Positions 8,492 to 42,659 of a DNA stretch of 64,000 bases are shown here, piece after piece (the stretch's first letter is position 1; every line of letters starts with the position of its first letter). The position numbers were made by a program, and so were the translations under genes. The notes beneath the pieces are model-generated. The model saw only the letters and a list, made by a program, of their open reading frames with translations. It did not search any database and was not told the DNA's origin. Source of the DNA: a virus; IMG/VR virus record IMGVR_UViG_3300009105_000002, positions 1-64,000 of that record, one strand, 5' to 3'.

Positions 8492-8604
8492 AAAGAATAC
8501 CAAGAAATTGTAAAAACAAGAAAAGATGTTTTTGGTCCGGCAAAATACCTACTTTTTGTCAAGAATGTGGTGGATTTGTCCCCAAAGGTAAGAACAATGA
8601 TTAA
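8488..8604 (+). CDS. 38-residue basic cysteine-rich peptide
   Basis: ATG 8488 lies inside the stop of the previous gene. The product begins MKRIPRNCKNKKRCFWSG and ends FCQECGGFVPKGKNND, containing four cysteines with one CxxC. The chain of overlapping starts supports translation. Function unknown. Confidence 0.5.
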   Translation: MKRIPRNCKNKKRCFWSGKIPTFCQECGGFVPKGKNND

Positions 8605-8773
8605 CATCGGCCACATCACAACATCAGATAAATCTATATTGAAACGCTATAAGAAGGCCCATAATCCAGAGGAACTGGAAGGCTCGCAGAAGCCCTGCCC
8701 GCACTGCGGCCACGGGACCATTTACAGACATGGCAGGATGTGGACACCGTGTCCTGCTTGCAGGAATAAATAA
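8597..8773 (+). CDS. 58-residue double-CxxC zinc-ribbon protein
   Basis: I choose ATG 8597, which overlaps the stop of the upstream peptide (ATGATTAA); an in-frame GTG at 8567 lies inside that gene. The C-terminal half has CPHCGHGTIYRHGRMWTPCPAC, a clear two-knuckle zinc ribbon. Such phage proteins often bind nucleic acid or RNA polymerase, but no partner is shown here. Confidence 0.6.
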   Translation: MINIGHITTSDKSILKRYKKAHNPEELEGSQKPCPHCGHGTIYRHGRMWTPCPACRNK

Positions 8774-10883: not shown

Positions 10884-11141
10884 ATGGGATTTCCAAAGGA
10901 GATAGATCCAAAGAAAGTAGAAAAAGCAGTCAAAGATATTATTTGCGAGCAGCTCGGACTCAAGGAAGTTAAGAATGAACAGAATTTGTCAATAGACCTT
11001 AATGTTGATGAGCTTGATATGATTGAGCTTTGCATGGTGTTTGAGGAGAAATGGGGTATAGACATTAGCGATGAAGATGCAGAGAGATTGACAACAGTTA
11101 AAGATGCAGTGAATTATATTATTGGGAGGACGAAGCAGTGA
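10884..11141 (+). CDS. Acyl carrier protein-like, lacking the phosphopantetheine serine
   Basis: The 85-residue product aligns along the whole length of bacterial ACP: VKDIICEQLGLKE, then LNVDELDMIELCMVFEEKWGIDISDEDAERLTTVKDAVNYI. In normal ACP the DSL motif carries the serine that receives 4'-phosphopantetheine; here it reads DEL, encoded GATGAGCTT. So the protein cannot be modified in the standard way. The partner-binding helix (ELCMVFEEKWGI) is kept. It may bind ACP partners in the host, such as the synthases or regulators that recognise ACP. AGGAGG lies upstream. Confidence 0.85.
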   Translation: MGFPKEIDPKKVEKAVKDIICEQLGLKEVKNEQNLSIDLNVDELDMIELCMVFEEKWGIDISDEDAERLTTVKDAVNYIIGRTKQ

Positions 11142-11317
11142 GAAAATGTAAATCTGGATGGGATAGATCTCTTGGCACAAGTAAACGTAAGCAGGGCATT
11201 AGGACGCCAAAGGCGCCGCAGAATATTACAGGGCATTTTACAATAAGAGGAAGTCAACTTCCCAAGGAAAGCGGGCTTGCAGAATTTATAGCAAAGCTAA
11301 TAAGAAAGGAGACATAA
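11138..11317 (+). CDS. 59-residue basic hypothetical protein
   Basis: GTG 11138 overlaps the stop of the ACP-like gene. The product starts with MRKCKSGWDRSLGTSKRKQG and is basic. Its stop overlaps the next ATG (ATAATG). Function unknown. Confidence 0.5.
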   Translation: MRKCKSGWDRSLGTSKRKQGIRTPKAPQNITGHFTIRGSQLPKESGLAEFIAKLIRKET

Positions 11318-11556
11318 TGTTTTTAAAAATAGGCAAGGCCCTGATCAATCAGGATTATATTTCGCATTGCATCGTCGATGAGGATGCAGGAAGGATATTA
11401 ATCAATCTTAAAAGCGGCGCGTTGTTCATGTTCGGGAAAACATCAGAGACATTCGATCCTCGAGGCAAGGAAAAAGGTGTGACATATTTATCAAGCGATG
11501 AGTTTTATTCGCTTCAATGTTATTTGAAAGGAGATTTTTGCCGCAATGTGGCTTAG
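11317..11556 (+). CDS. 79-residue hypothetical protein
   Basis: AGAAAGGAGACATA precedes ATG 11317. The sequence MFLKIGKALINQDYISHCIVDEDAGRILINLKSGALFMFG has a beta-rich pattern. It ends CYLKGDFCRNVA and overlaps the next gene. No family is recognised. Confidence 0.6.
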   Translation: MFLKIGKALINQDYISHCIVDEDAGRILINLKSGALFMFGKTSETFDPRGKEKGVTYLSSDEFYSLQCYLKGDFCRNVA

Positions 11557-12200: not shown

Positions 12201-12251
12201 ATGAGACATAAATGCAAAACCCCATCAAATGGCATAGCGAGAAAAGAATGA
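12201..12251 (+). CDS. 16-residue upstream peptide overlapping the methyltransferase start
   Basis: GAGGTGCGTC precedes ATG 12201. The frame ends with TGA at 12249-12251, overlapping an in-frame methyltransferase ATG at 12248. This layout suggests the methyltransferase may start at 12248 by coupling. The peptide (MRHKCKTPSNGIARKE) resembles no family. Confidence 0.3.
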   Translation: MRHKCKTPSNGIARKE

Positions 12252-13540
12252 TACAAGACCTCAGTTTAGCAGAATATAATCCGAGAAAAGCCACAGAAAA
12301 ACAGACCGCAGATCTCTCCGCTTCACTTGAACGATTCTCCCTGGCTGATCCAATCATTATTAATAAGAACAATAGGGTCATAGGCGGGCATTTTAGAATC
12401 AAAGTTTTACAAGAAAAAGGCACCCAGGAAATAGATGTCAGGGTGCCAAATAGAGAGCTGAACGAATCGGAAGAAAGAGAGCTTAATCTGAGGCTTAATA
12501 AGAATTTAGGGGATTGGGATATCGATGCACTATCTAATTTCGATGAGAGCTTATTGAAAGATATCGGGTTTAGCAGCGAGGAAATAGATAGCATTTTTGA
12601 TCTGAATATCAGCGAGCCTGAAGAGTTTGACATAGAAAAGGAGTTGGAAAGACTAAAGATAGAAGAGATCAGGGTTAAAAAGTGCGATATCTGGCAGCTG
12701 GGGAATCATCGGTTAATGTGTGAGAGCTCAACGAGCCTTGAGGCCTTGGAGAAGCTTGTAGACGGCCAGAGAATGGATTTTTGCTTTACTGACCCGCCCT
12801 ATATTCTTGATTATCTTAAGACAAAGTATAAGGGCAAGCCGAGCTGTAAGGGGTTTGGATATAGGGCTAACCGGAGATATCTCGAGACAGATTCCGCGCC
12901 GCAATTTAATGAATGGATACCGAATATAGCCAAACTCTTGAAAGAAAATGCCAGCATAATCATTTATGAGAACTGGAAGAATATTATACCACTATGGCAG
13001 GAGATGGAGAAGCATTGGAAGATCCGTAATTTAATCGTTTGGCATTTATCAAACCGTGTCCAGGGCTTTGCTGCGAAATATAGATTCTTCAATAAGTATG
13101 ACATAGCAATGCTCGCAACCCATGGAGATATGAATATTAACTCAGAGACCGAGGAAGAACTCTTACAGAATGAATATGAAATGGCAGTTTACGCAACATC
13201 AGGTAAGCCACACTGGGAGTCCTATCAAAAAGGCAAGAAATATTGCCCAACCGATGTAATTACTTTTAGGGCAAGCGATCGCACTCATTCGGGCCAGGGG
13301 ATAATATTCGGGACTAAGCCTGTAGAGATCTTAATTCCTTACATAAAAGTTTTGACCAAAAGAGACGATAACGTGATTGAACCTTTTGCGGGCTCCGGAT
13401 CTACGCTTATTGCCTGCGAAAGGATGAAAAGGCGTTGTTTCTGTATGGAACTGGTGCCGACTTATTGTGAAGTGATTATAAATCGCTGGGAAAAATATAC
13501 AGGGAAGAAGGCAGGATGTATAACCGCTGGAAGAGATTAA
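12212..13540 (+). CDS. ParB-like domain fused to DNA adenine/cytosine-N methyltransferase
   Basis: The 442-residue protein has an N-terminal ParB-like domain (SLAEYNPRKA, ADPIIINKNNRVIGGHFRIKVLQEKG, ELNLRLNKNLGDWD) and then a beta-class amino methyltransferase: IWQLGNHRLMCESS, catalytic motif TDPPYILDY near residue 193, and the SAM motif EPFAGSGSTLIACERMKRRCFCMEL near 390. This fusion is common beside phage terminase genes. It methylates phage DNA, either to evade host restriction or to mark packaging substrate. The start could be 12212 or the coupled ATG 12248. The end overlaps TerS by 25 bp. Confidence 0.9.
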   Translation: MQNPIKWHSEKRMIQDLSLAEYNPRKATEKQTADLSASLERFSLADPIIINKNNRVIGGHFRIKVLQEKGTQEIDVRVPNRELNESEERELNLRLNKNLGDWDIDALSNFDESLLKDIGFSSEEIDSIFDLNISEPEEFDIEKELERLKIEEIRVKKCDIWQLGNHRLMCESSTSLEALEKLVDGQRMDFCFTDPPYILDYLKTKYKGKPSCKGFGYRANRRYLETDSAPQFNEWIPNIAKLLKENASIIIYENWKNIIPLWQEMEKHWKIRNLIVWHLSNRVQGFAAKYRFFNKYDIAMLATHGDMNINSETEEELLQNEYEMAVYATSGKPHWESYQKGKKYCPTDVITFRASDRTHSGQGIIFGTKPVEILIPYIKVLTKRDDNVIEPFAGSGSTLIACERMKRRCFCMELVPTYCEVIINRWEKYTGKKAGCITAGRD

Positions 13541-19212: not shown

Positions 19213-19575
19213 ATGGCAAATAATTATAAGTATTCAGGAAAGCGTGTCACGATTTCCCCTGCAGCGCCGGTTGCTTCTGGTGTATTGGCGAGGCAGGTAG
19301 GTTTTATCGGTATACCTTTGAATAACCGAGTAGCAGGAGAGTCAGTTGCATTTGCTCTCGAAGGTGCATGGGGTATGACTTATGCAGCTTATGGAGCATA
19401 TCAGCCGCCGGTAGGTACGATTCTTTATTGGGATACGACTGCTAGCGCATTATCCATAGGTGCAGCGAATGATGATTACCCGATAGTAAAGGTTGTCACA
19501 GCGGTTAGCGCGACCGATGGTTCGTTCGATGGTTTGCTGCTTCCTCAGGGCAAGGCATACGGATTAGAGCAGTAA
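19213..19575 (+). CDS. DUF2190-like capsid decoration (cement) protein
   Basis: The 120-residue protein fits DUF2190: early KRVTISPAAPVASG, GFIGIPLNN, VALxG-type VAFALEGAWGM, PVGTILYWDTTASALSIG, and AYGLEQ at the end. DUF2190 members coat or stabilise capsids in many phages. It sits between protease and major capsid genes and is flanked by hairpins on both sides. Confidence 0.8.
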   Translation: MANNYKYSGKRVTISPAAPVASGVLARQVGFIGIPLNNRVAGESVAFALEGAWGMTYAAYGAYQPPVGTILYWDTTASALSIGAANDDYPIVKVVTAVSATDGSFDGLLLPQGKAYGLEQ

Positions 19576-19592: not shown

Positions 19593-19639
19593 TAGTAAGC
19601 AGGCGTGCTAATACGCAAAACACGAAAGCGAGGAATGTG

Positions 19640-20626
19640 ATGAGAAAAAGTTTACTCAAAATGTATCACGACTTGAAAGAGTCGGCCTCATCGAGCGACT
19701 TTCCTTATCTATTGGGTAATACCATGCATAAGAAGTTGCTTGCGAGGTTTAATGGGTGGCCATCACCTTGGCGCCAGTATGTTTTAAAAGGTGACCTGAA
19801 TGATTTCAGGACGCATGACAGGATATTGCTGTCTGAAGCACCGGACCTCTTGAAGATAGAGGAAGACGGCAATTATAAGGATGCAAAGTTTTCGGATTAC
19901 AGGTATCAGATCAAAGCTGATACTTTTGGCAGGACATTTAAGGTAACCCGTCATGCGATCATCAATGATGATCTTAACGGTATAATGAAGATGCCTCAGA
20001 TGTTTGGCCGCGCAGCGATAAGGACGCTCGTAAAACAAATCCTTGGATTATATGCGGCAGGTAGCCATAAATGCTATGACGCTAAGTCATTGTTCCACGT
20101 TGATCATAGTAATTATTTGGCTACACCAGTCGCTCTTGCTAATTCAGCGGCAGGATTGACGGCGGTTGCAGATTGCTGCAATCAGATCGAAGCAGGGACA
20201 GATCCAGATACCGGTGAGTTATTAGGTGTCAGGCCGAAGTATCTATTGACAGGCACCACGCTGAGCAAAAAGGCCGCGGCGCTTTTGAAATCATCACAGA
20301 TTATACCTACTTCTACAGGCGGTGGCGGTACGTATAATCCAGTAGCAAGTTTAGAGCTGTTAGTTGATCCTTTGATTGATACGCAGCTTTCGACTACGTG
20401 GTGGGCTGTATTAGCTGATCCAGCAGATTGCCCTATCGTTGAAGTAGGGTTCTTGAATGGATTAGAGACTCCGGAGCTATTGGCTTTGAAGCCTAATACA
20501 TACAGGGTTGCAGGCGGCGGTGAAGATCCTTACGGTTTTGAGTTCGATGATATGGATTTCAAAATGAGGTGGGATTTTGGCTTGCAGCTAGCAATGTACC
20601 AGGGTATTTGCAGAGGCAAGGAATAA
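19640..20626 (+). CDS. Major capsid protein, Mu gpT-like HK97 fold
   Basis: The protein of about 328 residues contains gpT-like blocks: GRTFKVTRHAIINDDLNGIMKMPQMFGRAAIRTLVKQ, then KSLFHVDHSNY (compare gpT LFhadHgN), LLGVRPKYLLTG, and a C-terminal DPYGFEFDDMDFKMRWDFG. ATG 19640 is preferred, with GCGAGGA upstream; GTG 19637 is one codon earlier. It forms the icosahedral shell. A strong hairpin follows the stop. Phage 2 carries a different member of the same broad family at 61356. Confidence 0.9.
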   Translation: MRKSLLKMYHDLKESASSSDFPYLLGNTMHKKLLARFNGWPSPWRQYVLKGDLNDFRTHDRILLSEAPDLLKIEEDGNYKDAKFSDYRYQIKADTFGRTFKVTRHAIINDDLNGIMKMPQMFGRAAIRTLVKQILGLYAAGSHKCYDAKSLFHVDHSNYLATPVALANSAAGLTAVADCCNQIEAGTDPDTGELLGVRPKYLLTGTTLSKKAAALLKSSQIIPTSTGGGGTYNPVASLELLVDPLIDTQLSTTWWAVLADPADCPIVEVGFLNGLETPELLALKPNTYRVAGGGEDPYGFEFDDMDFKMRWDFGLQLAMYQGICRGKE

Positions 20627-20650: not shown

Positions 20651-20687
20651 ATATAGGGTGCGAGGTCTGAAACCTCGCCCCCTATAT
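20651..20687 (+). terminator. Strong hairpin after the capsid gene (attenuator or processing site)
   Basis: ATATAGGG and CCCTATAT with inner GCGAGGT and ACCTCGC form a 15-bp stem with one mismatch and a 5-base loop. Only a short T stretch follows, so it may be a partial terminator or an RNA-stability element that sets capsid versus downstream expression. Confidence 0.6.
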
Positions 20688-20701: not shown

Positions 20702-21079
20702 ATGGCTTTTACGTATGATTTAAGTACGAATGTAGGAAAGGTTAGAAATTTAATCGGGGATGCCGTTGATTCAGGGCATTTGTTAGAAGATGCGGATATA
20801 ACTTCGTTTTTAGCAATGACGACGAGTGATCTCTATATGACAGCGTATCATTGCTTGATGCGGATTGCTAATTCTCAGGCCTTATTGGCCAAAATGAAAC
20901 AGGCCGGGGACTACAAAGAGGATCTTAGATCTGTTGCTAAAGAGTTAAGAGAGAATGCCAAGATGTTTAAGGAGATGTCAGAAAATATACCTGCTGAAGC
21001 ACAAGCAGAACATTTTAGAAATGATTTTAGCTATAGAGATATCACTGACCGTAAAGCTTTAAGGAATGATAATACATGA
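20702..21079 (+). CDS. Putative head-tail connector protein
   Basis: The 125-residue protein starts NVGKVRNLIGDAVDSGHLLEDADITSFLAMTTSDLYMTAYHCLMRIANSQALLAKMKQAGDYKED. This all-helical layout resembles gp6/gp15-type connectors, whose genes usually follow the capsid gene. It overlaps the first methyltransferase gene of the sugar island by 4 bp. Confidence 0.6.
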   Translation: MAFTYDLSTNVGKVRNLIGDAVDSGHLLEDADITSFLAMTTSDLYMTAYHCLMRIANSQALLAKMKQAGDYKEDLRSVAKELRENAKMFKEMSENIPAEAQAEHFRNDFSYRDITDRKALRNDNT

Positions 21080-21582
21080 AGAAGCAATGGAAAGATAGTT
21101 ATTGGTATACAGTGCCTTGCGCACGTGCGCGCATAGAAGAAATTGTAAGACGCGCAAAAGGATCATATAAGGTTCTTGATGCCGGATGTAGCGATGGTTT
21201 TTTATCACAGGCCCTTAAAGAGGCAGGCTTTCATGTTACGAGTATAGATAATAATGATAAGGCTATTAAACAAGCGGATGAGTTCTTTGGGATTAAGGTC
21301 ATTAAAGCGGATGTCGAAAATCTGCCTTTTATGGATGATGAGTTTGATCTATCAATAGGTGGAGAATTGTTGGAACATTTAGTCAATCCGGGCAAAGGAT
21401 TATCAGAGCTTTTTAGGGTTGCAAAAAATAGAGTTATATTAAGTCTTCCGATAGGTAAATATTGGTTAGGATGTAAAGATCATCTATGGGAAATAAATGC
21501 GACAATTATAGAACATGATAAAGGCAAAAAAGATATACTTGAGAAAAAAATAACTGTTTTGGAATTTATAAAAAGACGATGA
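21076..21582 (+). CDS. Class I SAM-dependent methyltransferase
   Basis: The 168-residue protein has motif I VLDAGCSDGFLSQAL, a motif II acidic region SIDNNDKA, and FDLSIGGELLEHLVNPGKGLSELFRVAKNRVILSLP, typical of Methyltransf_11-like enzymes. It starts inside the connector gene (ATGA overlap) and overlaps the next gene by 4 bp. In this setting it probably methylates a sugar or lipid-linked glycan, but the substrate is unknown. Confidence 0.8.
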   Translation: MKKQWKDSYWYTVPCARARIEEIVRRAKGSYKVLDAGCSDGFLSQALKEAGFHVTSIDNNDKAIKQADEFFGIKVIKADVENLPFMDDEFDLSIGGELLEHLVNPGKGLSELFRVAKNRVILSLPIGKYWLGCKDHLWEINATIIEHDKGKKDILEKKITVLEFIKRR

Positions 21583-22109
21583 ATATAATAGAGATAGCTC
21601 AAGAGGCAGTAAAATTACCAATACCTGAATGGATGGCAGTTGATATAAAAGGCAATCATGGTCAAGCGCCTTATTATAGATTTTTATATTTACTGGCCAA
21701 GGAAATGAAGCCTCAGGTAATGGTGGAGCTTGGAACTATGGAAGGCCTGGGAGCTATGTGTATGGCAAAAGGTAATCAGGATGGCCAAGTGATGGCAATA
21801 GATAAAAATATAAAGGATCTACATCCGGCATGCATAATGCCTAATGTGCAATATCTCAGGCAGGATAGTTTAGATGAATGCAACATAAGAGATATTGACA
21901 TATTATTTATAGATACTGATCATAACGGCCGGGCATTGTTTGAATATGAAGCTTGGAAGGGCAGAATGGCTAAGGGTGGAGTGATGTTATTCGATGATGT
22001 GAATTTAAACACAGAGATGAAAGTATTCTGGCATGAATTTAATCCTGAAGGTCAAAAGATAGATCTCCCAGAGCTACATGGTAGTGGATTCGGAGCGGTA
22101 GTCATATGA
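21579..22109 (+). CDS. Class I SAM-dependent methyltransferase (Methyltransf_24/CmcI-like)
   Basis: The 176-residue protein shows MVELGTMEGLGAMCMA (SAM loop), GQVMAIDKNIKDLHPAC, and ILFIDTDHNGRALFEYEAWKGRMAKGGVMLFDDV. The IDTDH motif is the metal-binding and catalytic block of cephalosporin hydroxylase/O-methyltransferase-like enzymes that modify sugars. It is coupled by 4-bp overlaps on both sides. Confidence 0.75.
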   Translation: MNIIEIAQEAVKLPIPEWMAVDIKGNHGQAPYYRFLYLLAKEMKPQVMVELGTMEGLGAMCMAKGNQDGQVMAIDKNIKDLHPACIMPNVQYLRQDSLDECNIRDIDILFIDTDHNGRALFEYEAWKGRMAKGGVMLFDDVNLNTEMKVFWHEFNPEGQKIDLPELHGSGFGAVVI

Positions 22110-23056
22110 ATATAGTAGTTTTTTCTTGCGCTAATACAGGGAATTTCGGGGATGATATCATTCTTGAAGGTATAAAGAAAAAGTTTTCGCGGGAATATCC
22201 CGATCATGGTGGAGTTATAAGGCAGATATTAAGGATCAATGCTGAAACAGCAAAATTTATCAATGAGCAGGATTTTCTGATTATAGGTGGTGGTGAGATA
22301 TTATCGAATTCAGATATGTTGAAGCAAATAATAAAATATGAGATAAAGATTCCTTATATGTTTTTGTCAGTGGGTATTGGAAGCAGTAAAGATATACTTC
22401 CATATTTAAAAAAGATACACCCTACAGCTTGGTATGCAAGGACACAAAAGGATCTTGATATATTGAAGGAGTGCGGAGTTAAAAACGCAATGATTCATAA
22501 GGATCTATTGTTTGAATGTTGTACCAAAAGAAAACCCAATGGCCGGATAGGATTTAATATAAAAAATCAAAAGAAACCATCTGTATTTATAGAGTCAATG
22601 GCGCATACACTCGACACTATGATTGCGGCTGGGATAGAGATAGATCTATTGGCTTTAAATTGTAAACCTCAACAGCCAATCAGTTATTGCGGAGAGAATA
22701 TATTAATATCTGACTGCAGCGACCTTGATTTGATGGAAAAAATACAACATAGGATGAAAAAGGATATCAATATAGTGACTTATAATGGCAAAGATCCTTT
22801 GAGATTTTTGGATATACTGGCTGATTATGAGGCTATAGTAGGAGAGAGATTGCACTCAATAATGGTGGCATTTCATGCAAAAATAGACTTCCGGGCGATT
22901 CCATATCATCCAAAAATCGATAAATTCCTTGATATGCATGGATTAAATGATAAGAAAATAGGCAATACGCCGGTAGATATCGGCATGGCAATAAAAGAGA
23001 TATGGTTAAAGAGGCCCGAGAGGCCTAGAAAGGGGATTTATGAACATACTGCATGA
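22106..23056 (+). CDS. Polysaccharide pyruvyl transferase family protein
   Basis: The 316-residue protein has the family layout: NTGNFGDDIILEGI at the start, DFLIIGGGEILSNSDML, SVGIGSS, AWYARTQKDLDILKECGVKN, and a C-terminal VGERLHSIMVAFHAKIDFRAIPYHPKI. This is PF04230 (WcaK/CsaB-like), which adds pyruvate ketals to surface sugars. No signal peptide. It overlaps its neighbours by 4 and 17 bp. Confidence 0.85.
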   Translation: MNIVVFSCANTGNFGDDIILEGIKKKFSREYPDHGGVIRQILRINAETAKFINEQDFLIIGGGEILSNSDMLKQIIKYEIKIPYMFLSVGIGSSKDILPYLKKIHPTAWYARTQKDLDILKECGVKNAMIHKDLLFECCTKRKPNGRIGFNIKNQKKPSVFIESMAHTLDTMIAAGIEIDLLALNCKPQQPISYCGENILISDCSDLDLMEKIQHRMKKDINIVTYNGKDPLRFLDILADYEAIVGERLHSIMVAFHAKIDFRAIPYHPKIDKFLDMHGLNDKKIGNTPVDIGMAIKEIWLKRPERPRKGIYEHTA

Positions 23057-24041
23057 GCTTAATCAGCTCGAATATGGAGGAGTTGAGCGGATGATTGCCA
23101 ATCTTATCAAATTTGATAAGAAAAATAAGCATTCGATTCTTGCTTATCAGGATGGACCGTTCAGAGAGGAATTAAAAGATGTAGAAATTATTATAGCGCC
23201 AAAGGAAAAAGGCAAAGAATTAGATTTTGAAACTGATCTTATTCATATTCACTCGGGAGGAGCGGTGAGTGAGCTGGCAATGTCAGTCGGGAAGGGTTTT
23301 CCAATAATTGAGACAATTCATTCTCCGATTCGTTCACCCATGAGAAGTGAATTGATTGCTCAAAGGGTCGGAGTGACAGATGTCGTGAGTAAATTAAATC
23401 ACGATTGTATTACGATTCATAATGGCTTGGATTTTTTGGAGATTATGCCTACAAAGGAACCTGAGGATATTAAAAAAGAACTCGGGATAAAAGAAGGATT
23501 GCCGGTTATAGGCAGGCTCGGCCGGATAGGCGAAGATAAGTATCTCGAGGAATGGCTTCTGGTTTGTAATTATTTGCAAAGGATGGGTTTAGAATTTATA
23601 CCTTTAATAATAGGCGACGAGACCATTGGTTTAAATGGCTATATAGGTAAGCTTAAACTTATGGCCGCCTCGCTGCCAGTCAAAAATGTTATATGGGCCG
23701 GACATAAGGTAGATGTGGCCAATTATTTGCAAATCATGGATGTATTTTTATATCCATCAGCTACAGAAGGATTTGGTCTTGTTTATGTTGAGGCAATGTT
23801 TAATGACGCGGTCCTTGTGACATATGAAAACGAAGTATCGAAGGAAATAGCAGCCGGGTATTCAATATTGACTGGTCCTAGCATCGAAGATCTTGCTATG
23901 GGTGTTATTAAAGGATTGGATATCAATATGAAGGACGCTATTACATCAGTGGCCAGGGGATGGGTTGAAGGCGAATTTAACGCAGAGCAAATGGTAGAGA
24001 AATACGGAGAATTGTATGAGCGAGTTAACAAATGTTCTTAA
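23040..24041 (+). CDS. GT4-family glycosyltransferase
   Basis: The 333-residue protein is a GT-B glycosyltransferase: HELNQLEYGGVERMIANLIKF near the start, PVIGRLGRIGEDKYLEEWL in the middle, then VIWAGHKVDVANYLQIMDVFLYPSATEGFGLVYVEAMFNDA with the EX7E-type motif (E...E around EGFGLVYVE). It overlaps the upstream pyruvyltransferase and the downstream neck-like gene by 26 bp. Confidence 0.88.
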   Translation: MNILHELNQLEYGGVERMIANLIKFDKKNKHSILAYQDGPFREELKDVEIIIAPKEKGKELDFETDLIHIHSGGAVSELAMSVGKGFPIIETIHSPIRSPMRSELIAQRVGVTDVVSKLNHDCITIHNGLDFLEIMPTKEPEDIKKELGIKEGLPVIGRLGRIGEDKYLEEWLLVCNYLQRMGLEFIPLIIGDETIGLNGYIGKLKLMAASLPVKNVIWAGHKVDVANYLQIMDVFLYPSATEGFGLVYVEAMFNDAVLVTYENEVSKEIAAGYSILTGPSIEDLAMGVIKGLDINMKDAITSVARGWVEGEFNAEQMVEKYGELYERVNKCS

Positions 24042-24615
24042 TGCCAGCATAGATATCAAGAGAATGATGGATGAGGTTCTTGATAAAGCAGCTGTAGTTG
24101 CATCGATGAGTCTTGATCGGCAGCCAGCAGAGGAAGTATACCTTCAGATTGAAGTGGAAGGATGCACAGTAGGATCCGGGCTTGTAAGTTTTGATGGATC
24201 AACGACTGAACAGGTTGCTTTTACCGCAGATGGTATAAATGTATCAACTAAGGGATTCACAAGCGTGTCTGGGATCACAGTTGCAGAGATATCTGATGGT
24301 TTTATTACGATCAGGGGAGTCAGCAAGCTTGGCCAGAATATAAATCAAGAAGTCAGTATTTATACAGGTATGTCGGTTATGTTTTATCCTCTGACTGGCA
24401 GGGCAAAAGAGATTTTGATGATAGCAACTGGTCAAAAGGATATAGCAATTTATAAATTCATGGCCCCACCTGCAAATATTATCAAACGTAACGATTTAAT
24501 GTATGCAGTATCGGGAATTCAGGGATTAACGCGAGGTCAAGTTGATTCTGTTAATGAAATAGTTGATCTTGATGGCAATACTCATCATGTAGAATGTAAC
24601 ATCTTAGGCCTTTGA
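24016..24615 (+). CDS. Putative head closure or tail-neck protein
   Basis: The 199-residue protein has a middle beta-rich domain (EEVYLQIEVEGCTVGSGLVSFDG...VAFTADGINVS) and a C-terminal stretch FMAPPANIIKRNDLMYAVSGIQGLTRGQVDSVNEIVDLDGNTHHVECNILGL. The last part resembles phage head-closure/stopper folds, where a YxV and a terminal beta strand are usual. Sandwiched between glycosyltransferase genes, it is coupled to the upstream gene. Confidence 0.5.
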   Translation: MSELTNVLNASIDIKRMMDEVLDKAAVVASMSLDRQPAEEVYLQIEVEGCTVGSGLVSFDGSTTEQVAFTADGINVSTKGFTSVSGITVAEISDGFITIRGVSKLGQNINQEVSIYTGMSVMFYPLTGRAKEILMIATGQKDIAIYKFMAPPANIIKRNDLMYAVSGIQGLTRGQVDSVNEIVDLDGNTHHVECNILGL

Positions 24616-24633
24616 GGCCGTAAAGGAGGAAAC

Positions 24634-26961
24634 ATGCGATATTCAGTAATCATAGTGACACATAACGGGTTGGAATTTACGGTTAAATGTATAGCCAGCA
24701 TAGTGCGCCATACGCAGGATTATGAGCTTATAGTGGTGGATAACGGCTCAAAAGACGGCACTGTAGGGTATTTAGAGGAATTATCGAGGCGCAGAGATAA
24801 CGTTCATATCATCTTAAATAAAGAAAATTCGACATATGCCAAGTCTAATAATCAAGGATATGAAATATCTGAAGGTGATCATGTATGTTTTTTGAATAAT
24901 GACACGGTGGTTAATGAAGGATGGCTTGATCACATGACGGCACATCTTTATAAAAATAATTCACTCAGCAATATCGGTATTGTAGGGCCTATAACAAATT
25001 GCTCGAATGGTAAACAGGCATATGGCAATATTCAGGATCCTAAGGTCTGGTATGAACAGAATAAAGGCAGATGGTGCCATGCCGGCAGGCTTTATGGATG
25101 GTGTTTATTGATGAAGAGGGCTCTTTTGAATGAGATAGGTATATTTGATGAGCAGTTTGAAAATTCACATGAGGATAATGATATATGCCTCAGGGCGCAA
25201 TTGGCTGGATACAGGCTTGTAATAGCTTTTGATACATGGATTCATCATACAGGCCAGGGGACATTCAGGAATTTTTATACTACTGAAGAATATCTAAGTA
25301 ATGGCCAAAAAAATTCAGAAAAATATTTTAATAAGTGGTGGGATCCACGGCCAAGGAAGCTTGTAGCAGTTTATAGACTTGGCAATTGCGAGCAGTATAT
25401 AGAGGAAAGCATGAAGCAGACCTCTAAATTTGCGGATTCTATTATAGTGCATTTATGTAGATCTACGGATAAGACAGAGGAAATTGTCAAACGGTTTCCG
25501 AAGGTTATTAAAATAGGCAGATATGACGGTGCCTTTCAGGAGGACTTTGAACGCAACTGGTTACTGCAGGAAGCATTAAAAACAGATGCAGATTGGTGCA
25601 TATCAGTTGACGGAGATGAGGTCTACGAGGATAAATTTGTCGAGAGGGTTCAAAAGATGATGAATCCGCGCAATCCGGAGATATTTGCTTATAGTTATAG
25701 ATGGCGCACTATTTGGGAGAGGCGCAATGGAGACGAATATTTTAGAGCTGATTCTACTTTTGGTGATTTTACTAATCACAGATTTTTTAGGCTGATAAAA
25801 AGACAGGAGATTACTTCAATTCATCCGGAAGGACATCATTGCGGATCAAACCCGATTATAGCACCTGAAAATATCACATGGTCGAATATTAGGGTAAAGC
25901 ATTTAGGATATGATACGACCGATCAGAGGCAAAAGAAGTATGAATTTTATCAGGCGAATGACCACTTTAAGGATTCAAGAGATATTGGAAATAAGGATTA
26001 TTCGCATTTGATAGATATGAATGTGCAGCTTGAAAAGTATGATCCTAATAATGGCATCAGTTGCATCATGATGGTCAAGAATGAAGAGGAAAGAATTCAG
26101 GCATGCATAAGTAATTTAGAATGTTTAGTGGACGAATATATTATTGTTGATACAGGATCAACGGATAAAACGGTTGAATTGATAAAGCATTTTGCCAAAT
26201 ATTCATCTGTACCAGTGAAATTATTACAGATGCCCTGGCCGGACAATTACTCAATACCTCGTAACTTTGCAAAGTTACATGCTACGCAGAAATGGATCCT
26301 TATGATGGATGCGGATGAGAGATTTGAGATGGAAGACATCTATAAATTGTTCAAAATGATAGAGTCTGAGGCAGATGCGATAATCTTCCATGTTATAAAT
26401 TACCTTAAGAAAACTATGCCCGGGCAAAAACCAGTATATGCATCTACGGAGTCAGTCAGATTGTATCGTAATATTCCAGAGTTTTATTATACAGGAATAA
26501 TTCACGAAACGATTGATGATTCGATGGCGGCTATGAAAAATAGAAGACCAGTGAAGATAGGACGTTCGCCGGTCAAATTACATCATGGTGGATATCTTAA
26601 GGATAAAAATAGAGTGGAAGGTAAGCTTCAATATTATACAAAACTTAATGAACAGCAGATTGAAATAACAGAAGGCAAGGATCCACGGCCTTATTTTAAC
26701 CTTGCGCTTCATTGGTTGAACAATGATGAAGAGAAAAAGGCCTTACAGTGCTTTCAGAAATCGATACAAGTCAATCCGAGATTTTGGCATTCACATCAGC
26801 AGATGGCAGCTTTGAATATAAAAAGTACAAAGATATTTTTAGAGAATGTGTTGCAATTTATCCCAGAGACTCATCCTTTTGTGCCTGAGGCCAAAGAGAT
26901 ATTAGAATATTTGAAATCAAAAAGCATCGGGAATGTAAAGGTAGGAAAAAATGCCTGTTAG
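24634..26961 (+). CDS. Multi-domain GT2 glycosyltransferase with TPR tail
   Basis: This 775-residue protein has three GT-A-like units. The first (1-210) has SVIIVTHNGLEFTVKC, DNGSKDGT and VCFLNNDT. The second (about 245-450) has VYRLGNCEQYIEESMKQ and SVDGDEVYE. The third (about 470-680) has SCIMMVKNEEERIQACI, DTGSTDKT and LMMDADERFE. A TPR-like end follows (NLALHWLNNDEEKKALQCFQKSIQVNPRFWHSHQQMAAL). The second and third units resemble SunS-like or WaaE-like enzymes. It likely builds a short glycan on a phage protein. It overlaps the tail-completion gene by 11 bp. Confidence 0.88.
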   Translation: MRYSVIIVTHNGLEFTVKCIASIVRHTQDYELIVVDNGSKDGTVGYLEELSRRRDNVHIILNKENSTYAKSNNQGYEISEGDHVCFLNNDTVVNEGWLDHMTAHLYKNNSLSNIGIVGPITNCSNGKQAYGNIQDPKVWYEQNKGRWCHAGRLYGWCLLMKRALLNEIGIFDEQFENSHEDNDICLRAQLAGYRLVIAFDTWIHHTGQGTFRNFYTTEEYLSNGQKNSEKYFNKWWDPRPRKLVAVYRLGNCEQYIEESMKQTSKFADSIIVHLCRSTDKTEEIVKRFPKVIKIGRYDGAFQEDFERNWLLQEALKTDADWCISVDGDEVYEDKFVERVQKMMNPRNPEIFAYSYRWRTIWERRNGDEYFRADSTFGDFTNHRFFRLIKRQEITSIHPEGHHCGSNPIIAPENITWSNIRVKHLGYDTTDQRQKKYEFYQANDHFKDSRDIGNKDYSHLIDMNVQLEKYDPNNGISCIMMVKNEEERIQACISNLECLVDEYIIVDTGSTDKTVELIKHFAKYSSVPVKLLQMPWPDNYSIPRNFAKLHATQKWILMMDADERFEMEDIYKLFKMIESEADAIIFHVINYLKKTMPGQKPVYASTESVRLYRNIPEFYYTGIIHETIDDSMAAMKNRRPVKIGRSPVKLHHGGYLKDKNRVEGKLQYYTKLNEQQIEITEGKDPRPYFNLALHWLNNDEEKKALQCFQKSIQVNPRFWHSHQQMAALNIKSTKIFLENVLQFIPETHPFVPEAKEILEYLKSKSIGNVKVGKNAC

Positions 26962-27463
26962 TGGAGCAGATGTAGTTGCCAGAAATATAAAAGCATTCGG
27001 AGGCGGGTTTGAAAGGCATGCTACGAAGGTAATGAAAAAAGCAGCTGATATACTTGATGGAGAAGTCACTAAAAATATGAGCTTATCTGATCATAGCCAG
27101 GCTGATCTTACTAAATTAGGGCATCCTTATGCGCGCAGGCATGGGCCTGAGGGCAAAGGATTACATAAGCCGCCATGGTTAGTTCATCGACAGAGCGGCA
27201 AACTATTAAGTAGTAAATTCAAGGGATCTAGTGAAGCATCTGTACTAGGAGGTCAGCTTAAAGTCAGCGGATGGGTGGGATTGGATCAAGGAAGGACTGG
27301 ATATGCGCAGGCTATTATCTGGGGTACATCGAGAATGATACCTAGAGATGTATTATCAGGTAGTTTGTTTAATAAAAGATTTCAGGGCAAAGTAGGAGTT
27401 CTGTTAAATACTAATCTCAGGGATTTAGTTGTAAATTTCAGAGGAGCTGAAACGCATGGCTGA
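26951..27463 (+). CDS. HK97 gp10-like tail completion protein
   Basis: The 170-residue protein has KAFGGGFERHATKVMKKAADILDGEVTKNM at the start and then HPYARRHG and WLVHRQSGKLLSSKF, typical of the gp10/neck family with a central loop. The end has TSRMIPRDVL. It probably joins tail to head. The gene starts inside the GT gene. Confidence 0.65.
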   Translation: MPVSGADVVARNIKAFGGGFERHATKVMKKAADILDGEVTKNMSLSDHSQADLTKLGHPYARRHGPEGKGLHKPPWLVHRQSGKLLSSKFKGSSEASVLGGQLKVSGWVGLDQGRTGYAQAIIWGTSRMIPRDVLSGSLFNKRFQGKVGVLLNTNLRDLVVNFRGAETHG

Positions 27464-28064: not shown

Positions 28065-28619
28065 ATGGCTTATAATGTCCCAACGTATCAACACAAGCGG
28101 TTTTCTTTTGGTCCTGGAGTATTGTATTTAGGATCGGAAGGAACGACACCGACTGTGGAACTCGGAGCAGTAAAGGGCAATGCAGAACTTTCAGTTGAGA
28201 GAACGCGCCTTGAGATTTTTCAGGGTAGCCCTCAGTCAAAAGTGAAGCAATATGCTATTAAGGAAGAAGTAATCCTTAAGGTAACTGGCATAGAGTGGAA
28301 TTTTGACAACTTTAATGCAGCCCTGGGCGCAGGTGTTACAGGCGCAAGCAACCCGGATGAGACGTTTGAATTCGGCGGAGACATGGATATGGCTGATAAG
28401 GCAGTGAGATTTCTGCACATACAACCTGATGGCAGTACCATAGACATTCACATGTTTAAGGTAGAAGGCGCAGGTAAGATTGCTATGACGTTTAATGAAG
28501 CAGATACTCATGAATTTCCTTATGAGTTTCATTCAGTCGAAGCGACAACAGGTTTTGATGCCGCAGCTCTAGCAGCGAACAAGAAGCATTTTAAGATAAT
28601 TAGGACAGTAGCAGCTTAA
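28065..28619 (+). CDS. Major tail (tube) protein
   Basis: The 184-residue protein starts YQHKRFSFGPGVLYLGSEGTTPTVELGAVKGNAELSVERTRLEIFQGSPQSKVKQYAIKEEVILKVTG, a phage tail-tube pattern, and ends in FKIIRTVAA. AAAGGAGGAATGAGACA precedes it. Position before the chaperone pair and tape measure supports it. Confidence 0.8.
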   Translation: MAYNVPTYQHKRFSFGPGVLYLGSEGTTPTVELGAVKGNAELSVERTRLEIFQGSPQSKVKQYAIKEEVILKVTGIEWNFDNFNAALGAGVTGASNPDETFEFGGDMDMADKAVRFLHIQPDGSTIDIHMFKVEGAGKIAMTFNEADTHEFPYEFHSVEATTGFDAAALAANKKHFKIIRTVAA

Positions 28620-34595: not shown

Positions 34596-34620
34596 AATGA
34601 ACAAACAAAGGGAGGGTATC

Positions 34621-35871
34621 ATGAACAAGTTATTAGTATTGATTTTTGCAGCTTTGTTAATGGTTCCGGGCATTGCAGGAGCATCGGATAATGCCAGAGA
34701 CATCGGAAATACTGGGTATATAGATACTGCTGTTGTGATAGCTGACGTAACGACCGCTAATACGGCCGCAGTCAATACGAGCAATCAGTTAGAAGTAAAG
34801 TCCAATGTAGATGATGAAGCAGATAGTACTTACTACCAAGATGATGCAGATTGGACAGATAATACCTCAGATCATCAGTTGATAGGTGGCATATATCAAG
34901 GCACGCCTCATTCTATTACTGATGGGGATACCGGGCCGATATCTTTGACAGCAAATGGATTTGTAAAGGTTAGTGATGGTGGGACAGATTTAAACGTGGA
35001 AGTTACAGAAACTTCTTTTGACGCTACACAAGCAACGCATGACAGCTTAAATTGTAATGCTAATATTCAGCAGGGTGATGCTGATATTGCTTCTGATAAT
35101 GAATTATATGTAAGGGGTTCTGGAACAGCCGGCACTGCTGATGAAGCAGTCCTTACAATTCAGGGAATAACTTCCATGACACCGGTGATTGTAACTGGTG
35201 ACTCGGCAGGTTCTTTAACAGTAGATCAAGCGACTGCTACCAATTTAAAGGTACAGATTTTTGGTGATGATATAACCTCTGCTATAAATACTGATGCAAC
35301 AGGAGATCTACAAATCGACGTGGCCACTATTGCCGCAGGGGATAATAATATAGGAAATGTCGATATAGTGACTCTACCCTCTGGCAATTTAGGCCAACAG
35401 GCAATGGCCGCATCACTATCAATTGTACCTGCGAGTGATATTACTGATACAACATATATAGGTGATATAAAATTCGGAGAAGCATTGCCTGCAGGTTCAA
35501 GCAATATAGGCGATGTAGATGTTCTTACGCAAGGCATGGCGCTTGCAAGAAAGGAATCTACGCAGGATTTAAATGTCGGGGCATTAAGCTATACGACGAA
35601 CTTTGCAGCTAAAACGAGAGTAAAACAGATATTATTTACTGCATCGGGATCGATAACTCAAACAGTTACCTTTACATTTGATAGCACAACAGGCGCAACT
35701 TATGACACGGTGATTGCAAGTGAGGATTTAGTAAGTGAAACAAATTATACATACATTCCCTCAGGAGAACTAATATTGGCGAGCGGCGATGAGATTCTTA
35801 TTGCATGTACTAATTCAGGGACACCTGCGGTTAATGCTTATGTAACGGTCATAGGAGAAACTTTAAATTAA
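34621..35871 (+). CDS. Exported beta-rich phage appendage protein
   Basis: GGGAGGGTATC marks ATG 34621; the upstream ATG at 34597 has no ribosome site. The protein opens MNKLLVLIFAALLMVPGIAGA-SD, a clear Sec signal peptide. The mature part is rich in T, D, A and G with shallow repeats (DNNIGNVDIVTLPSG, SNIGDVDVLTQG) and ends in a jelly-roll-like domain (TYIPSGELILASGDEILIACTNSG). It looks like a fibre or surface adhesin. Confidence 0.6.
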   Translation: MNKLLVLIFAALLMVPGIAGASDNARDIGNTGYIDTAVVIADVTTANTAAVNTSNQLEVKSNVDDEADSTYYQDDADWTDNTSDHQLIGGIYQGTPHSITDGDTGPISLTANGFVKVSDGGTDLNVEVTETSFDATQATHDSLNCNANIQQGDADIASDNELYVRGSGTAGTADEAVLTIQGITSMTPVIVTGDSAGSLTVDQATATNLKVQIFGDDITSAINTDATGDLQIDVATIAAGDNNIGNVDIVTLPSGNLGQQAMAASLSIVPASDITDTTYIGDIKFGEALPAGSSNIGDVDVLTQGMALARKESTQDLNVGALSYTTNFAAKTRVKQILFTASGSITQTVTFTFDSTTGATYDTVIASEDLVSETNYTYIPSGELILASGDEILIACTNSGTPAVNAYVTVIGETLN

Positions 35872-35905: not shown

Positions 35906-37609
35906 ATGAAAAGTAAAATTTTGATATTGCTCTTGGCATTGGCATTTGTTGCATCTAGTTCATTTGCTGATGAGAAAAGAGTTGACGGGAAAAAGGTAGA
36001 GACCTTCAAGCGTATCACAGTAGATACTATTAGAGGGGACTCTACAAATGGTTTATATATTGATTCGGATAGGGATGGGGTGACCGAGGCAACAGTTACG
36101 GCTTCAGGAGACATAACTGCAACAAGTTCTTTTATTATTGGCTCGGCTGATATAAATGAAACTGATTTAGAAAAACTTGATGGTATAACTAATGGAACAG
36201 CAGTAGCCAATAAAGCCTTGGTGACCGATGTAAATATTGACATAGATTTAGGTACTGGTGATATGGATGTTACTAATTTAGTCGCAGATGGGACATCAAA
36301 TCTTATTGGTGCAGTTACCATAGGAACTGCTACATCAGCCGCAGGCAATCTTTCAATGTATGACGCAGGGACTCTTACTCTTTATGAGGATGGTGATAAT
36401 TTTAATGTTACCTTGCAATGTAATTCAGGGGAGGCAGTAGGAACACTTACTGGAGGCTTAGATGTTTCAGGTGTAATAACTTCAACGTCTCCCGTATTTA
36501 CCACGCCTAATTTGGGAACGCCATCGGCCTTAGTAGGAACAAATATATCAGGAACAGCGGCAAATCTGACAGCAGGCTCAGTAACAAATGCCACCTTAAC
36601 GACTGCTCTTACTGTAGATACAGGCACGGTTACATTAACTGGTAACGTAGCAAATAGTTCTGTTTTAACTATTGGTGCCGGGGCAGTATCAGTATCAGGA
36701 AGTAATACCGGTGACAATTCAGGAACAGATGATCAGACTTTAGCTGAAGTATTAGCGAGTGGCGCTGACGGGAACGATGTAGATATAACTTCACTCGGTA
36801 AATTAGAGTTCTTTGACGCAGGATTATATTTAGACGCTGACGCTGACGGGGTAATGAATATAACCTCGGATAATACACTTGAATTACATTCTGCTGACTG
36901 GGATATATCTACAACTGGTGCGATTACTAATGCCGCAATAGATGCAGACAATAATACTGTTACCAATATAGTTATAGGTGCGGAATGCACAGGAGCTTCT
37001 ACTTCATTAACTGACACAGCAGATATTTTTTATGACGCTGAATTGACAGCGGCAGCAGTAGAGGCAGCACTTACAAATGACGCGATAGATTTTGGAACAG
37101 GCGTTGTAACAGCTGCTGGATTTACTCTTGCTGCCAATGAAAATATTACTCTTGGTGCTCAGACATTAGACCATGACGGAACTGATTTTGTATTCAATGA
37201 CAGCGTAAATGCTGGGGCAAATGCTATCAAATCAACCGTCAATATGCCTGGAGTGCCTCATCATTTAATCTTCAACGTGGCTAATCCCAATGTCAGGGCT
37301 ACAGCGGATACCCAAATATGTATCTGGCCATTAACGCCTGCGGCATTTAATATAGATAAAATAGAAGTAACGCTTGACGCTGCCGGAAATGAAGTAGCGG
37401 GGGATTTAAAGTATGCGGACACTTTTATAGGCTTGGCAAATCCAGTATTAATAGAAACTTTTGACACTACAAACGGTGTCCGTAGTGATAGCTCTATGTC
37501 TGGGACTGCTGATGTTCCTGCATCAAAGTGTCTATACATACAATTTGACTCTGTTCCTAATGCGGCTATTTTGCAAATGTCGGTAGACATAACTTTTAAT
37601 TACGATTAA
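35906..37609 (+). CDS. Exported repeat-rich fibre-like protein
   Basis: AAAAGGAGG precedes ATG 35906. The signal peptide is MKSKILILLLALAFVASSSFA-DE. The 567-residue protein has many repeats with TLTGGLDVSGVITSTSPVFTT and PNLGTPSALVGTNISGTAANLTAGSVTNATL, a wording common in phage tail fibres and in adhesin-like repeats. The last 100 residues form a separate tip (NAIKSTVNMPGVPHHLIFNVANPNVRATAD). An exported form of a tail-fibre-like repeat is unusual. Confidence 0.65.
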   Translation: MKSKILILLLALAFVASSSFADEKRVDGKKVETFKRITVDTIRGDSTNGLYIDSDRDGVTEATVTASGDITATSSFIIGSADINETDLEKLDGITNGTAVANKALVTDVNIDIDLGTGDMDVTNLVADGTSNLIGAVTIGTATSAAGNLSMYDAGTLTLYEDGDNFNVTLQCNSGEAVGTLTGGLDVSGVITSTSPVFTTPNLGTPSALVGTNISGTAANLTAGSVTNATLTTALTVDTGTVTLTGNVANSSVLTIGAGAVSVSGSNTGDNSGTDDQTLAEVLASGADGNDVDITSLGKLEFFDAGLYLDADADGVMNITSDNTLELHSADWDISTTGAITNAAIDADNNTVTNIVIGAECTGASTSLTDTADIFYDAELTAAAVEAALTNDAIDFGTGVVTAAGFTLAANENITLGAQTLDHDGTDFVFNDSVNAGANAIKSTVNMPGVPHHLIFNVANPNVRATADTQICIWPLTPAAFNIDKIEVTLDAAGNEVAGDLKYADTFIGLANPVLIETFDTTNGVRSDSSMSGTADVPASKCLYIQFDSVPNAAILQMSVDITFNYD

Positions 37610-37668: not shown

Positions 37669-38532
37669 ATGAAAATACTTAAAATTGCATTAGGACTTTT
37701 GTTATTGTTTTCGACATCGGTCTATGCTTTTACCCCGCCTACAGAAGAATACACTTCTGACGAGTATACTAGACTGCTGCTTCATATGAATAATGACGCG
37801 TGGGCTGATGACGGGGAAACTGGGCATACCCCAACAGCGGAAGGTGACCCCGCATTTGACGCCGTCAATAAGAAGTTTGGTTCTCATTCAGGAGAGTTTG
37901 ACGGGAATGACTACATAACTTATCCAGATCACGCTGATTGGTATTATGCAACAGGTCTTCTCACCATAGATTATTGGATAAGATTCGCAACCGACCCTAC
38001 AGCATTATCTACGACATTGATGTATGAGCAGTATGAAGATGGTTCTAATTATGCTCAAATAGCAATTGATGGTAGTGGAAAATTATACCTTTATTACTTT
38101 GAGGGAGCAGCTTCTACTGCTGTGGCTTTTAATACTTCGAGCGCAGTCTTTTTAGCTGCCGACACTTGGTATCACGTCGCAGTAGTTAGATATGGGACAG
38201 GCGAAAACAATATGTATGTGTTTATAGATGGCGATTCAAAATCTTTATCTTGGGCTGCGACCTTAGCAGCAAATGAGGAACTCGGGGATATAGCAGCTCT
38301 CATAGCTATTGGCGCGGAAAACGGCGGGACAAAGGGGTTAAATGGATTGCTTGATGAATACAGGATAAGCAAGGGCATCGCAAGGGATTGGATCCCTCCT
38401 GACATAGGAAATGTGATGATGATACAATGTGTTAAAAATTACATCAATAATTTAAACCCCGATAAGATAGGCACTCCAATGTGGAGCTGTAAGATAAAGT
38501 TAATGTGTTGGTGGAAAAATTTGAAAGGATGA
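37669..38532 (+). CDS. Exported LamG/concanavalin-like adhesin
   Basis: The 287-residue protein has signal peptide MKILKIALGLLLLFSTSVYA-FT. Residues about 32-240 are a LamG-like lectin fold: KFGSHSGEFDGNDYITYPDHADWYY, YWIRFATDPT, WYHVAVVRYGTGENNMYVFIDGD and LLDEYRISKGIARD. The same domain, with long identical stretches, is in phage 2 (58163-59401) but without a signal peptide and with an added repeat tail. It probably binds a host surface glycan. Confidence 0.8.
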   Translation: MKILKIALGLLLLFSTSVYAFTPPTEEYTSDEYTRLLLHMNNDAWADDGETGHTPTAEGDPAFDAVNKKFGSHSGEFDGNDYITYPDHADWYYATGLLTIDYWIRFATDPTALSTTLMYEQYEDGSNYAQIAIDGSGKLYLYYFEGAASTAVAFNTSSAVFLAADTWYHVAVVRYGTGENNMYVFIDGDSKSLSWAATLAANEELGDIAALIAIGAENGGTKGLNGLLDEYRISKGIARDWIPPDIGNVMMIQCVKNYINNLNPDKIGTPMWSCKIKLMCWWKNLKG

Positions 38533-38831: not shown

Positions 38832-39088
38832 TGATGAATGTTTGGACATTTCTTTCAATAGTAGTTCTAGCGATTGTCGCATTAGAAATAATCAAAATCA
38901 AACCTGAACCGCCTTTCGATCAACTTCTCAAACCCCGATCACTCTACGCTGGGATGATCTATTTGACATTCTGTTATCTTGCAGTTGTGGGAAAGATAGA
39001 AGCCCGTTTTGTAGTGGAAATAGTAATGTTATTAATGGCATTTTATTTCGGCTTTAAGGCCGGACAAAAAACAGGAGGTGTAAAATGA
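38831..39088 (+). CDS. Small membrane protein, candidate holin
   Basis: ATG 38831 overlaps the previous stop. The product has two to three hydrophobic helices (WTFLSIVVLAIVALEIIKI, MIYLTFCYLAVVG, FVVEIVMLLMAFYFGFKAG) and a short charged tail. Its place after an XhlA-like gene fits a holin. The endolysin is at the other genome end (578). Confidence 0.55.
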   Translation: MMNVWTFLSIVVLAIVALEIIKIKPEPPFDQLLKPRSLYAGMIYLTFCYLAVVGKIEARFVVEIVMLLMAFYFGFKAGQKTGGVK

Positions 39089-39486
39089 AAGCATTATGTA
39101 TTGTGATGGTTTCAATCATGGTGTTGTGTGGTAGTGCTTTGGCAGAAGATTTATCAATTGAAGATTCATTAAAGAAATTACCTGCTCTTAAGCAAGGCAT
39201 TGCATATTCTTTAATGGAACACGATATCCATTATCTTAGCACTCTGGAATTAATCAACTGGAAAGGTATAGCTTTTGAGGCCGGATATTCTTCAAAGGAT
39301 AAGGTTGTAGGAGTTATAAGTTATGAACTTCTAAAACTTAAGGATCTCGGGGTAACAGTACCAGTATTAGATCTTATCGAATGCAGGGTAGGCACTTATG
39401 CAGGCTGGGGTAGGCTTGGCGTAACAAAGGGCAATAATGAGTATGATTATGGACTTTCGGCTACCCTTATAAATATTAAGTTTTAA
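39085..39486 (+). CDS. Exported 133-residue protein of unknown function
   Basis: Signal peptide MKALCIVMVSIMVLCGSALA-ED. The mature part has a beta pattern (YLSTLELINWKGIAFEAGYSSKDKVVGVISYELLKL) and ends in INIKF, a terminal phenylalanine as in outer-membrane beta strands. It could be a periplasmic or outer-membrane protein. It overlaps the holin-like gene by 4 bp. Confidence 0.6.
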   Translation: MKALCIVMVSIMVLCGSALAEDLSIEDSLKKLPALKQGIAYSLMEHDIHYLSTLELINWKGIAFEAGYSSKDKVVGVISYELLKLKDLGVTVPVLDLIECRVGTYAGWGRLGVTKGNNEYDYGLSATLINIKF

Positions 39487-42262: not shown

Positions 42263-42299
42263 GATTCGGGTGGATCCTAAAAAAATCGGGAAAAAGACC

Positions 42300-42328
42300 T
42301 TGACAGGGAAAAGACCATCAGGTAAACT
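42300..42328 (+). promoter_or_regulatory. Sigma70-like promoter
   Basis: TTGACA (42300-42305), 17 bases, TAAACT (42323-42328). It lies 25 bp before a 41-residue coding frame with a strong ribosome site. Confidence 0.7.
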
Positions 42329-42352
42329 ATTAGGTGAAAAGGAGAGAAGCGC

Positions 42353-42493: not shown

Positions 42494-42542
42494 ATTTGTG
42501 AAATGAGAGAGGACCGTAAAAGAGTCTTTAGAAACTGAATGG

Positions 42543-42618: not shown

Positions 42619-42659
42619 AAAGCAAGGGCAAAATAGCTTGCTTGGCGTGACTTGGGTAA

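Follow-up and report, generated by a model that had tools for sequence, protein, structure and literature searches.

Gene content of the neck island

The stretch of DNA analysed here, which we call the window, covers the initial 64 kb of an IMG/VR record of 95,319 bp, and its first ~43 kb hold a plus-strand siphovirus, phage A, with an island of putative glycan-building genes among its virion genes. Terminase, portal, protease, decoration and major capsid protein (MCP) genes lie upstream of the island and tape measure and Dit genes downstream, and the island itself spans the interval between an adaptor-type gene at 20702 and a tail-completion gene at 26951, with every gene on the plus strand. 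The head-tail adaptor-type connector gene (20702..21079) follows MCP and forms the left border; it matches PHROG 18316/1732 (4e-7, unknown function) and is alignable across 12 lineages. Behind it lie MT1, an S-adenosylmethionine methyltransferase (21076..21582; Methyltransf_11, 1.8e-15), MT2, a Methyltransf_24-type methyltransferase (21579..22109; PF13578, 2.1e-11), PyrT, a polysaccharide pyruvyltransferase (22106..23056; PF04230, PS_pyruv_trans, 2.9e-12), a GT4-type glycosyltransferase (GT; 23040..24041; PF00534, Glycos_transf_1, 2.5e-16), a gene at 24016..24615 that we describe below, and a 775-aa, three-domain GT2 with a C-terminal TPR (24634..26961; Glycos_transf_2 in three stretches, 3.4e-54). 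The right border is a tail-completion gene of the Neck1/gp10 type (26951..27463). An earlier note on this DNA had named these genes, and all of them were found, with each named enzyme above its Pfam cut-off (PyrT, for example, passes PF04230 membership with 47.5 bits against a gathering threshold of 25.3); the order recurs in 13 lineages and is not due to chance.

The same note had described overlaps throughout the island and genes that are translated together. Six junctions do overlap, by 4 bp at adaptor/MT1, MT1/MT2 and MT2/PyrT, by 17 bp at PyrT/GT4, by 26 bp at GT4/24016 and by 11 bp at GT2/26951, and joint translation is plausible only for these; between 24016 and the GT2 gene at 24634 there is instead a gap of 18 bp, and GT2 is preceded by a strong Shine-Dalgarno sequence of its own, AAAGGAGGAAAC. 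Overlaps of 4–26 bp are commonplace in phage late operons, and although a virion protein as target, which the note had read from this coupling, is the best supported direction, overlap by itself names no acceptor. Scans for promoters (43 sites compared with 57.8 in shuffles) and terminators (7 compared with 10.4) showed no excess. A GC-rich hairpin (GCGAGGT-CTGAA-ACCTCGC, window 20658-20684) lies between the MCP and adaptor genes, and could keep the neck and island genes at a lower expression level than capsid.

Profile searches of Pfam and PHROG with the window protein of 24016, and of the PDB with the connector family, gave no match. In two relatives, L050 and L051, the slot is occupied by a 115–122 aa protein, and that of L050 (9175-9522, 115 aa) matches PHROG 615 'connector, head-tail adaptor' (4.8e-5) and DUF6093 (2.6e-5). 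Likewise, the outgroup L067 has a 115-aa protein in this position that matches PHROG 1059 and 615, and profile comparison of it with the 24016 family aligned the C-terminal parts weakly (E 6e-4, probability 28%). The N-terminal domain of 24016 (residues ~36-120) is beta-type with a combined Ser and Thr content of 22%. The protein is therefore most likely a stopper-like head-tail connector to which a Ser/Thr-rich beta-type domain of ~85 residues has been added, and the earlier description of it as neck-like holds, both through the PHROG 615 match of the L050 homologue and through its slot between the adaptor and tail-completion genes. An AlphaFold model of 24016 was too weak to use (mean pLDDT 48) and was set aside. 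For the right border, the homologue in L048 (14582-15079) matches PHROG 5 'tail completion or Neck1' (3e-6), with synteny kept in 8 lineages. With 24016 as the probable connector and 26951 as the Neck1/tail-completion gene, the island fills both gaps of the adaptor, connector and tail-completion trio. In L048 an apparent homing-type endonuclease open reading frame (11030-11449, minus strand), recognised by eye, is inserted between GT4 and the connector gene.

Conserved core and exchangeable cargo

Relatives were gathered by searches with the capsid protein, GT4 and GT2, of which the GT-based searches retrieve GT carriers by design while the capsid-based searches do not; TerL, used in an initial genome scan, yielded no relatives. 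The order adaptor, cargo, GT4, connector, cargo, GT2 was seen in 13/13 distinct lineages covered from the adaptor into GT2 (window, L004, L047, L048, L050, L051, L059, L060, L064, L066, L081, L086 and L087), among which MCP identity falls to 38%, and the tail-completion gene follows GT2 wherever the contig continues. In all relatives covered, GT4 precedes the connector gene directly or almost so, and each locus retrieved with GT2 is in the adaptor/connector context. Likewise, all seven capsid-found relatives that are long enough to show GT4 possess it (L004, L012, L059, L060, L061, L064 and L066). The earlier note had proposed a comparison with phages lacking the island, and this was possible for two relatives with sufficient sequence and capsids of 36–38% identity, L015 and L067; both are without the island, and in L067 the adaptor, connector and tail-completion genes directly adjoin one another. 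The island is present in L051, the capsid of which is also at 38%. A further candidate outgroup, L013, was unusable as its contig ends 3.5 kb after MCP.

The closest comparison is with L004, from another metagenome, which carries the whole island at 72–82% protein identity and shares the small overlaps at the adaptor/MT1/MT2/PyrT junctions. Synonymous divergence (dS) between the two is 1.4–1.9, near saturation, and omega was 0.068 for GT4, 0.083 for GT2, 0.084 for PyrT, 0.093 for MT1 and 0.128 for MT2, compared with 0.060–0.118 for the structural genes (portal, protease, decoration, MCP and adaptor). Both GTs are thus under purifying selection, with omega at 0.07–0.08. Pairwise distances of GT2 and GT4 also correlated with those of the major tail protein (MTP; r 0.91 and 0.85, respectively), MCP (r 0.73 and 0.65) and terminator (r 0.88 and 0.78), with Mantel p values of 0.0004–0.008 where tested, and their mean divergence (0.63 and 0.65) was not above that of MCP (0.70). 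GT4 and GT2 are core genes of the virion operon and not morons.

The remaining enzymes are exchangeable cargo. MT1 is present in the window, L004, L047, L048, L060, L061, L066 and L087, with no match in L050, L051, L059 or L064, while MT2 was found in at least eight lineages at 34–72% identity, and PyrT in L004, L064 and L066. Five relatives (L012, L050, L051, L059 and L086) carry an MptE-like enzyme (PF01973) together with a radical SAM/SPASM protein, L047 also has the MptE-like enzyme, and the cargo of L061 includes a dTDP-glucose 4,6-dehydratase homologue (TIGR01181, 283 bits, below the cut-off of 365). Some of the L086 cargo lies on the opposite side of the connector, and in L081 only a radical-SAM remnant is left over.

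One relative, L066, is on a 71.5-kb contig of a groundwater metagenome-assembled genome of Candidatus Omnitrophota. The first 30 kb of this contig are chromosomal, with an LpxC gene (Pfam-confirmed, with a FabA domain) and, as recognised by eye, GlmU-, DnaB-, BamA- and ribosomal-protein-like genes. Beyond these, the minus strand encodes a tyrosine integrase and an S24/HTH repressor; plus-strand phage genes come next, the last of them forming the late operon with its island, as in the other relatives. L066 is thus a prophage, and at least one member of the group is temperate.

GT2 architecture and the likely acceptor

GT2 is formed of three GT-A domains with acidic metal-binding motifs (D90; D326xD328; D559xD561) that are invariant in five lineages. 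The closest solved relatives of its third domain (residues 475-775) are GmaR (1.2e-21) and SunS (1.3e-16), followed by ThuS (2e-9), and its top NCBIfam match is TIGR04195 SunS. SunS is a peptide S-glycosyltransferase. It was also the top Foldseek match of GT2, which we mention for its direction only, since the AlphaFold model (mean pLDDT 56) is too weak to rely on. TPR_1 was matched at residues 686-717 (2.5e-4, below the Pfam cut-off), and a TPR after the GT domain is also backed by TPR-type chain matches in a profile search of solved structures and by helix pairs in the model. GmaR attaches N-acetylglucosamine to Listeria flagellin, and its TPR has been proposed to recognise flagellin (PMC9638930). 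The island proteins have no predicted membrane span (maximum 19-residue Kyte-Doolittle scores of 0.7–1.35) and are all predicted to be soluble, and no flippase or lipid-carrier gene was seen among those examined.

Judged from gene content and its conservation, the island is probably a built-in virion-protein glycosylation module of a temperate siphovirus group, with Candidatus Omnitrophota as a host that at least one of these phages lysogenises. The stretch from adaptor to tail-completion gene would be expressed in the late phase, together with the head and tail genes, and the soluble GT2 would recognise a phage structural protein through its TPR. Its GmaR/SunS-like domain may then attach the first sugar to a side chain of the acceptor, with the other two GT-A domains and GT4 extending the chain, in an order that we can only suppose. 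The cargo would cap this chain, here with two methyltransferases and a pyruvyltransferase and in relatives with MptE-like, radical-SAM/SPASM or dTDP-glucose dehydratase enzymes, giving each phage its own cap chemistry. Candidates for the decorated protein are the N-terminal domain of the connector, the capsid (MCP, 19637-20626, PHROG 4523, 1e-60; head decoration protein, 19213-19575, PHROG 122, 4.6e-8), the tail tube (probable MTP, 28065..28619, ahead of the tape measure gene and matching the PHROG 2175 Ig-domain protein, 1e-7) and the fibres, with all three of these genes on the plus strand. As a tentative extension, glycosylation might be a clade-wide core part of neck assembly, with a TPR-guided GT2 that primes and extends a glycan on the connector or collar, and interchangeable caps, supplied by methyl-, pyruvyl- and radical-SAM enzymes and distinct for each phage, that form a diversifying coat for adsorption or environmental recognition and not for animal immunity.

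Several observations weigh against a virion protein as target. Domain 3 scores 66.9–74.8 bits against the SunS TIGR04195 equivalog cut-off of 350, domain 1 of GT2 resembles polysaccharide-type GTs, and pyruvyltransferase and GT4 families act mostly on cell-surface glycans. Furthermore, neither MCP nor MTP has a Ser/Thr-rich C-terminal tail, which we had looked for as a clue to the acceptor, and L050 and L051, with their minimal connector, still carry both GTs, which indicates that the extra domain of the connector is not the sole acceptor. None-the-less, the direction taken in the earlier note, decoration of the virion and not conversion of the host surface, is supported because the GT4/GT2 core is at a fixed neck locus and co-diverges with structural genes, because domain 3 is nearest to the protein and peptide GTs GmaR and SunS, because the island showed no component that spans the membrane, acts as a flippase or works on a lipid carrier, and because in the prophage the cassette is part of the late operon, while the genes for integrase and repressor are on the opposite strand. 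The comparative evidence and the GmaR/SunS homology are stronger support for such a target than co-translation.

We also considered whether the enzymes alter a host surface glycan, lipopolysaccharide or capsule, during infection or lysogeny and thereby exclude competing phages. Surface polysaccharides are common targets of the pyruvyltransferase, GT4 and GT2 families, the NCBIfam matches of the island enzymes include CsaB, EpsD and TuaG, and the LpxC gene of the prophage host indicates that it makes lipopolysaccharide precursors. However, the island has no GtrA/flippase, membrane-spanning GT or lipid-carrier enzyme, GT4 and GT2 stay with the connector gene across all lineages and follow the structural genes in their divergence, the prophage keeps its GTs with the late genes, and domain 3 is nearest to protein GTs, all of which make this explanation unlikely.

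A quite improbable alternative is mixed tailoring of a phage protein or peptide for export, by radical SAM chemistry, methylation and S- or O-glycosylation, or decoration of fibre-like proteins that bear signal peptides, in place of the head, neck or tail tube. Radical SAM/SPASM proteins, methyltransferases and SunS-like GTs are all known classes in peptide maturation, and three fibre-region proteins (34597, 35906 and 37669) start with Sec-type signal peptides, the first two being Ser/Thr-rich (21%). However, no small precursor-peptide gene was seen in the island, that of the window has no radical SAM gene, and the fibre genes shift location while the GTs remain at the neck. The fibre module is between portal and protease in L004 (3729-7929), between MCP and adaptor in L047 and L048, and after the tail genes in the window. 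Sec-type signal peptides start fibre- or lectin-like proteins of the window at 34597-35871, 35906-37609, 37669-38532 and 39085-39486, and the same feature is seen in L004 (3729-7134), L048 (3716-8195) and L072 (10069-13351). Such signals are odd for cytoplasmic tail assembly, and these proteins may be exported or may use the segment as an anchor.

Hitch-hiking of unrelated morons in the late operon is a very unlikely account of the island, since, although MT1, MT2, PyrT, MptE and radical SAM genes come and go, cross the connector and leave remnants, GT4 and GT2 are constant in position and presence, strongly constrained and co-diverging with structural genes. Finally, decoration of phage DNA by the GTs, as hypermodified bases, is also very unlikely: some phage GTs are reported to glycosylate DNA (Pyle et al. 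2024, as cited in PMC12619734) and the window encodes, shortly before the terminase genes, a fusion of a ParB-like domain with an N6/N4 DNA methyltransferase (12212-13540), but a Pfam scan of ten phage A proteins, eight of them from the early region, detected no hydroxymethylase, thymidylate-synthase-like or TET/JBP gene, and neither pyruvyl transfer nor a SunS/GmaR domain would be expected for DNA.

Host range and comparison with known systems

One minus-strand gene, which neighbours the integrase, is common to phage A and the L066 prophage (window 40302-41036, 55% identity), and judging from this relative the host of phage A may also belong to Omnitrophota. The record contains two complete-looking virion gene sets that face one another, phage A on the plus strand (MCP 19637) and phage B on the minus strand (MCP 61356-62276; portal, record 64557-66785; TerL, record 67325-68785). 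The junction between them is not unique to this record, as window 42001-45000 recurs with 100% identity on a separate contig (3300009320_000105); possible explanations are prophages that lie side by side or an assembly error common to both. The two phages share a LamG-type tail protein (window 37669-38532, plus strand, and ~58730-59300, minus strand; 61% over 192 aa, with 80% DNA identity over 160 bp). They also have in common a small open reading frame (8567-8773) and a homologue of a cell-wall hydrolase (542-1036), and together these suggest a common host. Phage B has a sugar cluster of its own (record 79000-95319, L002), with a GDP-mannose 4,6-dehydratase (87646-88608), GT2 genes and B12-binding and SPASM radical SAM proteins, none of them homologous to the phage A island except for a weak methyltransferase match.

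Sugar-modifying genes within a siphovirus virion operon have precedents. The mycobacteriophage Corndog, of cluster O, carries an O-methyltransferase and three glycosyltransferases between portal and protease that were proposed to modify the capsid (PMC4351075). Capsid and tail-tube proteins in virions of the mycobacteriophage Che8 are reported to be glycosylated (Freeman et al. 2023, as described in PMC11256854, PMC12619734 and PMC11600133), and putative GTs of the Che8-like phage Maravista are near the right genome end (PMC11256854). The present island is similar in placing GTs inside such an operon, and a methyltransferase too, as with the O-methyltransferase of Corndog. However, its GTs flank the connector gene and do not lie between portal and protease, and it differs from both systems in having three GT-A domains in one protein, a pyruvyltransferase and, in relatives, radical-SAM and MptE cargo. 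When GT4, PyrT, GT2 and GT2 domain 3 were used as tblastn queries, GT4 and PyrT had no match in 50,697 phage records and GT2 matched only SPbeta, Listeria, Enterococcus and faecal phages, so at the sensitivity of tblastn the island enzymes appear not detectably homologous to those of Che8 and Corndog. The best reading is that the island would function in the manner of Che8/Corndog virion glycosylation, with non-homologous enzymes at a different place.

Compared with bacterial enzymes, domain 3 has a GT-A domain homologous to those of GmaR and SunS/ThuS, and GmaR likewise has a TPR after its GT. Unlike GmaR and SunS, the phage enzyme has two extra upstream GT domains and is under the SunS equivalog cut-off, and no counterpart of the antirepressor part of GmaR was found. 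PyrT is a member of the same PF04230 family as CsaB, but scores 55 bits against the CsaB equivalog cut-off of 213 and is encoded among the late genes of a phage; when the PDB was searched with a profile of the pyruvyltransferase pair, no match was obtained. The MptE-like Pfam family of the cargo enzymes in L012, L047 and L050 includes the Maf proteins. Maf proteins are flagellin glycosyltransferases (PMC11339370), whereas the MptE-like enzymes here are in relatives only, are shorter, and have no nonulosonic acid genes seen with them. Finally, unlike Gtr-type serotype-conversion clusters, the island lacks a membrane-spanning flippase and polytopic or anchored GTs.

Few cultured phages have been shown to glycosylate their virions, and antibody escape is the benefit that has been discussed for them. 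Here, phages whose hosts are uncultured environmental bacteria hold non-homologous enzymes at a fixed locus, in a setting where selection by antibodies is unlikely, and the question of what phages gain from decorated particles becomes testable. The island supplies for this a compact candidate three-domain protein glycosyltransferase and a natural set of exchangeable tailoring enzymes.

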